From an uncultured Lachnospiraceae bacterium (GTDB lineage: Bacteria > Bacillota > Clostridia > Lachnospirales > Lachnospiraceae), in the NCBI GenBank assembly GCA_902766365.1, contig CACXDC010000192.1, positions 1 to 38,859 on the forward strand: DNA of 38,859 nucleotides. The letters are read 5' to 3'. The position numbers were made by a program, and so were the translations under genes. Below are positions 2,971-4,215 of the stretch, in pieces; within the stretch, counting starts at the first letter, position 1; every line of letters starts with the position of its first letter. The notes beneath the pieces are model-generated. The model did not search any database. It was given only the letters and a program-made list of their open reading frames with translations, and was not told the origin of the DNA.

Positions 2971-3402
2971 TTATAATGCTGCCAGAGCCTTGCCAAGTGC
3001 CTTGCAGTTTGCGATGGCATCATCATCCGGGGTTTCCTGACAGATCACGCCTTCACCGCCTACAACAGTTGCACCTGCTGCCTTGCATCTCTCTTCCCAG
3101 TCACGCATCCACTGGCCGTCTCCCCAGCCGTAGGAACCAAACAGACCTACGCTCTTGCCGGCAAGGCTTCCTTCCAGTTCGCACATGAAGGGCTCCATTT
3201 CCATTTCCTCCAGGACTTCAGCTCCCATGGCAGGACATCCAAGGGCAAAGCCCTTCATGCTCTGCAGATCGGCTGCGGATGCATCACTGACGTTGATGAT
3301 CTCTGCCTTGCTGCCGGCTTCCTGTACGCCCTCTGCTACGGCTGTTGCCATAGCTGCTGTATTTCCACCCTGTGACCAGAATACGATTTTTACTGTTTCC
3401 AT
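2971..3402 (-). CDS. Short-chain flavodoxin
   Basis: A 143-residue flavodoxin, an FMN-binding soluble electron carrier that replaces ferredoxin when iron is scarce. The phosphate-binding loop is SQGGNTAAMA near residue 10, a variant of the usual S/T-x-T-G-N-T. The isoalloxazine-binding regions are seen as GCPAMGAEVLEE near residue 57 and GSYGWGDGQW near residue 90. Length is normal for the family. An ATG three codons upstream is only two bases from the AGGAG ribosome binding site, so the ATG at 3402 is preferred, with 10-base spacing. It follows the DUF3793 gene by 21 bases and presumably shares its operator-bearing promoter. The function is secure; iron-linked regulation is inference from the operator and from flavodoxin biology. 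Confidence 0.93.
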   Translation of the reverse strand: METVKIVFWSQGGNTAAMATAVAEGVQEAGSKAEIINVSDASAADLQSMKGFALGCPAMGAEVLEEMEMEPFMCELEGSLAGKSVGLFGSYGWGDGQWMRDWEERCKAAGATVVGGEGVICQETPDDDAIANCKALGKALAAL

Positions 3403-3423
3403 TATTATCATTCTCCTCTCTTT

Positions 3424-4075
3424 TTATGCCGGAACGATCCCAAGCGGTCTCTGATACAGCCTGATGATCTCCGGAATGCTCCGTCCTTCCTTCAGAAGAC
3501 AAAGCAGATGATGTTCTGCAAAGGAATACCACCGGAAGGTTCTCTGTTTCTGTGAAACATTGTGGTACACTTTCCAGTATCCGTTGCAAAGGTAACTGCC
3601 ACCCTTATGTAAAATAAACCCCTCCACATCCTCCACCGGATATCCAAGCAGGATTCCCATTTCATGGGGAAATTCTCTCATCCCCCTGCTGTAGGACTGG
3701 TATCTTCTGCGGAAACGGGCCAGGATCGCTGACAGGCTGCTGCACTCATGTCCTGCCCTTATGCTGTCATGATCTGTCTGATATCCCGCTTTTACCAGCC
3801 AGTCTTTTCTGTCCGGTTCTCCGAGCATCCTCTGCAGCCATTCCCTGTGATAAAGCATGATCACCAACCGTCCCTCTTCCTTCAGAAGAAGATACATGCT
3901 GATGCCGCTGTCCTTCCGGAATGATCAGCAGATTGGATACCTTAAGGCCTGCGATCACAGGTGCACACTGTATGATCATCTGCACTTCCAGTCCTTCCGT
4001 TTCCATATGCTGCATCAACTCCCATGTTTCTCTGCTCAAGTCCTTCTCTCCCGTATAGTCATTTCTTCTCGCCAT
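3424..4075 (-). pseudogene. DUF3793 family protein, frameshifted
   Basis: Two overlapping frames together make one DUF3793 protein. The first, from the ATG at 4075, has QMIIQCAPVIAGLKVSNLL, the family's conserved CAP-x-hydrophobic-AG-x-K-x-SNL segment. The second, down to 3424, has SGISMYLLLKEEGR, then FPHEMGILLGYPVEDVEGF and the C-terminal YQRPLGIVPA. The second frame is closed by a TGA at 3925-3927, so the switch lies between about 3897 and 3924. It corresponds to one extra base or two missing bases. The molecular role of DUF3793 is unknown, but the family often neighbours flavodoxin and iron-uptake genes. It may be a true pseudogene, a phase-variable site or an assembly error. The start codon lacks a clear Shine-Dalgarno sequence. 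Confidence 0.75.
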
Positions 4076-4081
4076 CCATAA

Positions 4082-4097
4082 GTTAGTTGTATCTAAC
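4082..4097 (-). promoter_or_regulatory. Operator-like dyad, copy 1 (GTTAG-N6-CTAAC)
   Basis: GTTAG (4082-4086) and CTAAC (4093-4097) are perfect inverted arms separated by six bases. The site ends seven bases before the DUF3793 start, where a ribosome binding site would normally be. On the minus strand it reads GGTTAG-N6-CTAACT, matching copy 2 beyond the arms. Confidence 0.65.
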
Positions 4098-4111
4098 CCA
4101 TTCTTGTAGAA

Positions 4112-4136
4112 AACGGCCAGAACCTCTTCTGGCCGT
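4112..4136 (-). terminator. Leader hairpin, terminator or attenuator
   Basis: ACGGCCAGA (4113-4121) and TCTGGCCGT (4128-4136) form a 9-bp GC-rich stem with a 6-base loop. On the minus strand a weak T tail follows. It is downstream of the promoter at 4187-4215 and upstream of DUF3793. It can therefore end rsgA operon transcripts and may also attenuate the flavodoxin transcript. Confidence 0.55.
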
Positions 4137-4169
4137 CCTCAAGAAAAGTATGTCGGGCATTAATGGTTG

Positions 4170-4185
4170 GTTAGTTACCACTAAC
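4170..4185 (-). promoter_or_regulatory. Operator-like dyad, copy 2 at the transcription start
   Basis: GTTAG (4170-4174) and CTAAC (4181-4185) are separated by six bases, just as in copy 1. It begins one base after the -10 box, so it covers the predicted transcription start. This is the classic position for a repressor. The arms resemble half-sites of DtxR/IdeR-type metal regulators (TTAGGTTAG), which would suit a flavodoxin operon. Confidence 0.7.
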
Positions 4186-4186
4186 T

Positions 4187-4215
4187 ATTCTATCTGCAAG
4201 ACATCATTTTGTCAA
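4187..4215 (-). promoter_or_regulatory. Consensus promoter of the DUF3793-flavodoxin unit
   Basis: On the minus strand a perfect TTGACA (4210-4215) directly abuts the rsgA stop codon. It is followed after 17 bases by TAGAAT (4187-4192). The predicted start of transcription falls inside operator copy 2 and leaves a leader of about 105 bases. Confidence 0.8.

Follow-up and report, generated by a model that had tools for sequence, protein, structure and literature searches.

Eukaryotic RNA polymerase I (Pol I) terminators of the Reb1/Nsi1/TTF1 kind combine an RNA hairpin, a T-rich element and a protein site at a set spacing. As excerpts of one report describe it, the enzyme pauses on colliding with the DNA-bound protein, at a T-rich stretch that lies 15 bp upstream of the protein's site; the hairpin then causes release (PMC12366685). 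In bacteria, the roadblock repressors LacI, CcpA, CodY and PurR act downstream of the transcription start, where they stop elongating polymerase (PMC10310618, PMC4132739). LacI-blocked polymerase is cleared largely by Mfd (PMC4132739), and the excerpts of these two reports mention no built-in terminator at a fixed distance from the roadblocks. Intrinsic terminators and attenuators place a GC hairpin and a T-tract in a leader, and the DtxR, IdeR and MntR regulons pair regulators of the DtxR superfamily with sites at Feo genes.

The leader described here lies in a window of 38,859 nt (the whole stretch of DNA that was analysed) from an uncultured Lachnospiraceae bacterium, and it shares features with each of these systems. 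As in the Pol I terminators, a hairpin, a T-rich element and a putative protein site stand at a set spacing. Unlike them, the unit would act on bacterial polymerase, its candidate binder belongs to the DtxR family and has no kinship to Reb1/Nsi1/TTF1, and it would be regulated, probably by iron, and stands in leaders and inside operons. Its hairpin also abuts the T-tract directly, so deep backtracking would not be needed. A DtxR-superfamily candidate regulator and sites at Feo genes recall the DtxR/IdeR/MntR regulons, but the operator, GTTAG-N6-CTAAC, and the coupling of a second operator to a terminator do not. In contrast to attenuators, several of the leaders have no room for an antiterminator, and the gate appears to be a downstream DNA site. 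Judging from sequence comparisons, we put the probability at roughly two in three that the leader is an iron-gated double lock, in which a DtxR-type repressor would bind both operators and would raise termination from the second.

Literature searches on roadblocks together with intrinsic terminators or termination showed, among the titles and opening parts of abstracts listed, no bacterial case gated by a repressor. Searches for operator-terminator coupling, for DUF3793 with flavodoxin, for DtxR with Lachnospiraceae, and for iron and flavodoxin likewise returned none, and DUF3793 was named in one unrelated paper.

Architecture of the window leader

The leader and its downstream genes comprise the following features.

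4187..4215, minus strand: promoter TTGACA-N17-TAGAAT, with the -35 box at 4215-4210 and the -10 box at 4192-4187; 11/12 consensus matches
4170..4185, minus strand: operator 1, GTTAGTGGTAACTAAC, an exact GTTAG-N6-CTAAC, expected over the transcription start
4114..4135, minus strand: terminator-shaped hairpin CGGCCAGAA-GAGG-TTCTGGCCG, with the stem ending 16 nt before operator 2
4108..4113, minus strand: T-tract TTTTCT, 5 T in 8
4098..4113, minus strand: 16-nt spacer from the hairpin base to operator 2, made up of the T-tract and then 10 nt; spacing conserved in relatives
4082..4097, minus strand: operator 2, GTTAGATACAACTAAC, an exact GTTAG-N6-CTAAC; proposed roadblock site
3767..4075, minus strand: DUF3793 gene, N-terminal frame, broken by a frame change
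3424..3897, minus strand: DUF3793 (PF12672), C-terminal frame, E 2.1e-37
2971..3411, minus strand: flavodoxin (PF00258), E 6.5e-16

The promoter and both dyads are as the original prediction had placed them. The -35 box directly follows the rsgA stop codon, and the two exact dyads are spaced 88 bp apart. Because only 1 nt separates operator 1 from the -10 box, operator 1 should cover the predicted transcription start, as had been proposed. Operator 2 starts 90 nt past the end of the -10 box, well downstream of that start. It had been assigned to the DUF3793 translation start, and it does end 6 nt before the ATG at 4075; the true start codon of this gene is uncertain. A claimed match between the dyads beyond their arms proved weak.

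The GC-rich hairpin between the dyads had been noticed, but its terminator shape and its tie to the second operator had been missed. The hairpin carries a T-tract directly 3' of it, which is the shape of an intrinsic terminator, and its 24-nt form has a folding energy of -17.1 kcal/mol (leader folding z = -5.2). A simple terminator scan of the window did not return this hairpin, and no Rfam family matched the window at gathering score.

Both genes of the proposed DUF3793-flavodoxin unit were confirmed by Pfam. DUF3793 itself (3424-4075, minus strand) is broken into two overlapping frames; elsewhere in family genomes it is an open frame of about 180-270 aa in most of 58 places. The break may mark a unit that is decaying in this strain, or it may be an error in the contig. 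When an 861-base leader query was run against 37 genomes of the same genus, 13 matched, the window's own included; the other 12 matched at the rsgA end only (10 genomes) or in the DUF3793 part only (2 genomes).

The operator motif recurs at iron-related genes

The window holds two matches to GTTAG-N6-CTAAC, and still two when one mismatch is allowed. With 0.67 matches expected by chance and at least two found in 12 of 100 shuffles, these counts alone are no more than suggestive of operators that did not arise by chance, as the original prediction had argued. The genome as a whole has 16 exact sites (the window pair included) against 2 for a reversed-pattern control. Two of the 16 (L007 26-41 and L015 47-62) read as the same inverted hairpin, found at the ends of two contigs, and probably do not represent separate operators. 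Genes adjoining the sites encode, by Pfam, a DtxR-type regulator, a nitroreductase, flavodoxin and a methyltransferase. Other sites adjoin genes without an obvious link to iron, namely MATE and a TetR regulator (by Pfam) and enolase (by eye), and some of the sites may therefore be non-functional.

We then compared genomes across the family, drawing nearly one per genus; the statistics ignore kinship, and some genomes contribute several sites. DUF3793 was present in 56 of 80 genomes drawn. Among 30 DUF3793 loci from this draw, an exact dyad occurred anywhere in the locus in 25, and a dyad with at most one mismatch in 27. The three others (L042, L043 and L045) have no such dyad anywhere in the locus. 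By eye, the DUF3793 leaders of L042 and L045 carry a Fur-box-like sequence in place of the operator; both genomes encode the DtxR-type regulator, which raises the possibility of a regulator swap. A further 80 named DUF3793 loci were the best 80 of 587 confirmed. Across the resulting 111 leaders (30, 80 and the window), scanned over 420 nt upstream of the unit's first gene, 85 had at least one exact site and 42 at least two. Among 299 family genomes, 43 have a pair of exact sites separated by 38-68 nt and 33 a pair separated by 66-96 nt; the reversed pattern gave 0 in either range.

Pfam-confirmed genes downstream of sites encode FeoA, FeoB, DUF2325, flavodoxin, DUF6110, a NifH-like protein, FecCD, ZIP and two further ABC transporters; some other downstream genes were named by eye. 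A site with at most one mismatch was present in 44 of 90 FeoB loci. Its repeated presence at FecCD, flavodoxin, DUF2325 and DUF3793 genes, at feoA, in the interval from feoA to feoB and beside a short DtxR-type regulator gene supports GTTAG-N6-CTAAC as a probable iron-responsive operator across the family. The enrichment at iron-related genes that had been looked for in this genome and its relatives was thus found in the loci examined, and membership of an iron-responsive regulon gains support from the motif's place at iron genes and beside the regulator. Excerpts of one study report that feoB of Roseburia intestinalis rises 1.8-fold in low iron and 3.8-fold in high iron (PMC4659462). This response is a misfit with a simple iron repressor; the operators of that gene lie outside our comparison.

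Two side observations concern genes near the operators. A NifH-family protein (PF00142) stands under a double operator with hairpin in L146 (1626-2384), pointing to a possible iron-controlled nitrogenase-like system. Enolase-like genes lie near operators in L009, L138 and L052, upstream in the first two; in L052 the operator follows by 17 nt a hairpin at the apparent enolase 3' end.

A short DtxR-type protein is the likely binder

The likely binder of the operators, judged from sequence, is a DtxR-superfamily protein of 119-136 aa, a length that leaves no room for the SH3 domain at the C terminus of DtxR. The regulator of the window's own genome (L002) matches PF01325 (E 1.6e-10) and PF02742 (E 1.1e-15) and has an exact operator site 163 nt upstream. 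The other two PF01325 hits in this genome (L202 and L203) have no exact site in their loci. An operator with at most one mismatch lay within 300 nt upstream of 10 of 12 regulator genes, a count biased by the fact that these loci were mostly fetched for their operators. In L126, L133 and L192, the regulator gene is divergent from FeoA (identified by Pfam).

The best solved relatives of the regulator profile are MntR (1.6e-21) and then DtxR (1e-17). The primary metal site of DtxR/IdeR consists of Met10, Cys102, Glu105 and His106. In all 11 regulators aligned, C100, E103 and H104 (C-x2-EH) are invariant, as in the Cys102-x2-Glu-His of DtxR/IdeR; aligned MntR has Glu in place of Cys100. The position equivalent to Met10 is Met in 7, Asn in 3 (the window's own genome included) and Asp in 1. 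The Asn of the window genome's regulator counts against the double-lock reading.

Assigning the regulator by co-occurrence was uninformative. Its profile has a match in 75 of the 80 genomes drawn, and Fur has one in 71 of them; presence alone cannot decide. Two genomes (G005 and G077) encode the regulator and have DUF3793 leaders without the motif; two others (G011 and G030, each 86% complete) have the motif and no detected regulator.

The hairpin stands at a fixed distance from operator 2

We assembled 101 distinct adjacent pairs of exact operators (gap 20-130 nt) and kept the 70 for which promoter score fixed the direction; the direction calls rest on these scores. Stems were required to be perfect and G-C-ended, a definition chosen after looser detectors had extended stems into the T-tract. 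Such a stem was found in 55 of the 70 pairs, and a strong one in 37. Twenty-nine of the 37 strong stems end 16-19 nt before operator 2 (3, 15, 9 and 2 at the successive distances), while 20,000 trials of random placement never put more than 16 of 37 into any 5-nt window. Measured from operator 1, hairpin distance in the oriented pairs showed no clustering (p 0.52). By eye, seven of the eight outliers (L011, which is the window, and L032, L115, L119, L168, L172 and L182) contain another or shorter stem that ends some 16-18 nt ahead of the operator, but the counts treat them as misses.

The arrangement also has a direction. Twenty-nine of the 70 pairs had a stem at 16-19 nt upstream of operator 2. 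On the mirror side of operator 2, examined over 64 nt, one pair did, and on the inner side of operator 1 two did. In a set of 638 site-orientations with no direction chosen, stems ending at 16, 17, 18 and 19 nt numbered 6, 33, 16 and 7 (62 together), and no other distance had more than 6. Twenty of these 62 stems are operators themselves, spaced 33-34 bp from the next operator; without operator stems the counts are 4, 22, 11 and 5, with at most 5 at any other distance. In the relatives' profile the stem is followed by 7 positions with 55-72% T and then by about 9 unconserved nt. The stem sequences themselves differ between genera by inspection. Because RNA downstream of the terminator is absent when the terminator acts, the constraint on distance to operator 2 should act through DNA.

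A gated terminator should be weak alone, and we therefore compared 31 coupled hairpins having at least 4 T in 8 with 56 gene-end terminators; the coupled sets count both orientations. The coupled hairpins were weaker, with a median of -9.1 against -12.4 kcal/mol (p 0.005, operator stems excluded), or -8.3 kcal/mol (p 0.001) with operator stems included. Their T-tracts did not differ from those of gene-end terminators (p 0.17, operator stems included). The window copy is a counterpoint: at -17.1 kcal/mol its hairpin exceeds the coupled median in strength and might stop polymerase unaided.

The proposed lock is optional: the same detector left 41 of the 70 oriented pairs without a stem at that distance ahead of operator 2, and in 38 of 43 leaders with a single operator, a scan of the stretch between operator and gene showed no terminator.

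Operators 33-34 bp apart are common in the loci examined. In L126, L192, L293 and L306 (and L154 by eye), an operator palindrome occupies the place of the terminator hairpin, about 16-18 nt before the next operator. In such palindromes a single sequence may act both as an operator in the DNA and as a hairpin in the RNA; cooperative binding could instead account for the 33-34 bp spacing. In L219 (about 1200-1340), the hairpin segment appears by eye to be tandemly duplicated, and the second copy alone lies about 17 nt before the operator.

FeoB loci and units without operator 1

A second set was gathered after the spacing hypothesis had been formed. It comprised 90 FeoB loci (30, and 60 later) from a longer list and contained 88 sites with at most one mismatch. 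Stems were called at 4 bp and a score of 11, a lower threshold than in the set of 638 orientations. We split the sites by the presence of an exact TTGACA in the 45 nt upstream. Among the 51 non-promoter sites, 27 had a run of at least five T in the last 24 nt; 26 of these runs end 6-11 nt before the operator, 18 of them at 8 or 9 nt. A stem ending at 16-19 nt was present at 11 of the 51, two of these stems being operators. Of the 37 promoter sites, 2 had such a T-run and none had a stem at 16-19 nt. The initial 30 loci had drawn attention to the T-run gap. In the 60 later ones, T-runs occurred at 13 of 25 sites with gaps of 7-11 nt, and stems at 16-19 nt at 8, two of them operators. The mirror side of the FeoB sites had no stems and no T-run at gaps of 6-11 nt. 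The T enrichment spans positions -18 to -9, counted from the operator, the same place as the T-rich stretch of Pol I terminators in the excerpted report (PMC12366685).

Many of the non-promoter sites seem to lie between feoA and feoB, with FeoA recognised by a loose pattern or by eye. In L184, where Pfam confirmed both genes, FeoA occupies 1215-1433, the sites lie at 1501 and 1589, and FeoB begins at 1733; a stem stands 17 nt upstream of the site at 1501 and, by eye, likewise at 1589. Many feoA-feoB T-runs have no strong hairpin. In L229, L232, L241, L252 and L265, the run follows the apparent feoA stop and ends 8-9 nt before the operator, again with no strong hairpin. The minimal element may thus be a T-run at a set distance.

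The unit of hairpin, T-tract and operator also precedes DUF2325 (by pattern or eye) in L084, L105, L114 and L217, where the 230 nt upstream contain no dyad with up to three mismatches and operator 1 is thus absent. Upstream of these units, a sequence resembling the end of an AraC-type regulator gene was seen by eye; such a regulator might drive these promoters. The window's own genome shows the unit three times: in the window, in L013, where a methyltransferase gene follows and the 230 nt upstream contain no promoter-like pair scoring above 9/12, and in L250 upstream of FeoB, where T7, 8 nt and an operator with one mismatch follow a FeoA identified by eye.

Alternative explanations

Two ordinary operators, one blocking the promoter and one acting as a plain roadblock, could flank an unrelated leader hairpin or a constitutive attenuator. 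Roadblock repressors downstream of promoters are known, at least in the excerpts of PMC10310618, and one-operator leaders with no terminator behind the operator exist, as counted above. This reading gives no reason to expect a preferred 16-19 nt between hairpin and operator 2, a direction in that arrangement or its repeated use inside operons, and we consider it unlikely.

Operator 2 could instead act as RNA, either as a 5-bp hairpin at the translation start or within a tandem-hairpin target of an RNA-binding protein. In the predicted fold of the leader, GTTAG-N6-CTAAC does pair its arms into a 5-bp stem around a 6-nt loop, near the start codon, and the original prediction had allowed for action of the second copy on the RNA. 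The same sequence, however, is also used at promoters, its six central bases are weakly conserved in the relatives' profile, and in other leaders the site is far from the first gene. Its position is moreover tied to an upstream terminator-shaped element that would act before the second copy is transcribed. We regard an RNA role as improbable.

We think it similarly doubtful that the promoter makes a short iron-responsive small RNA ending at the terminator, with operator 2 serving the downstream gene separately. The promoter and the terminator-shaped element lie about 70 nt apart in the window, which would fit such an RNA of about 70 nt. Yet the T-tract profile has no -10 pattern, the segment from operator 1 to the hairpin shrinks to 0-4 nt in L031, L046, L055, L058 and L061, and the fixed spacing is not predicted; a small RNA may be a by-product. 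Two related candidates were rejected: a second promoter in the T-tract, since the profile has no TANNNT pattern, and riboswitch or leader-peptide attenuation, since the hairpin starts 0-4 nt after operator 1 in those same loci.

DNA looping by the repressor between the operators, with the hairpin incidental, is very unlikely: weak helical phasing of operator spacing was seen (R ~0.25, p ~0.01, with five periods tried and uncorrected), but the spacing varies widely and the unit occurs without operator 1. Bending of the DNA by the A/T-tract to aid repressor binding would suit the constant distance of the tract, about 8-9 bp, but we give it hardly any credence, as the operator is symmetric and yet the T-run at a gap of 6-11 nt lies on the upstream side only (26 upstream against 0 mirror at 50 sites), and is rare at promoter operators (2/37).

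Proposed mechanism and implications

What the sequences give directly is a motif and its enrichment, a gene neighbourhood, a terminator shape, a fixed spacing with a direction, and hairpins weaker than those at gene ends. The iron-gated double lock goes beyond these in three respects: we infer a DtxR-type protein as the binder, iron as its ligand, and termination raised by the bound repressor. With ferrous iron, the DtxR-type repressor would bind operator 1 and block initiation. The same repressor at operator 2 would form a roadblock for polymerases that escape. A blocked polymerase would have its active site over the T-tract and the hairpin just emerged behind it, and the stall would make a weak intrinsic terminator efficient, releasing the transcript before the flavodoxin operon. 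At low iron, both operators would be free, and polymerase, no longer held at the weak terminator, would read through. The hairpin, T-tract and operator would work as a unit also alone, in leaders without operator 1, and inside operons, as between feoA and feoB.

Taken more broadly, we think it somewhat probable that these units form a bacterial regulatory class: a metal sensor bound to DNA would determine whether transcription ends at a hairpin and T-tract 16-19 bp upstream of it. The class would be functionally convergent with Pol I terminators and would operate in leaders and between cotranscribed genes of the iron regulon of one large family.

Roadblocks and intrinsic terminators are each well known, and their standing at one shared distance in many genera implies joint action. 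If this reading is true, roadblocked polymerase would have a built-in release element, and bacteria would have a parallel of the Pol I terminator. The geometry leads to sharp and cheap predictions, and it supplies a searchable signature for iron control in bacteria with little-studied regulators. For the family, iron control would reach beyond initiation, to termination and to individual genes of an operon.
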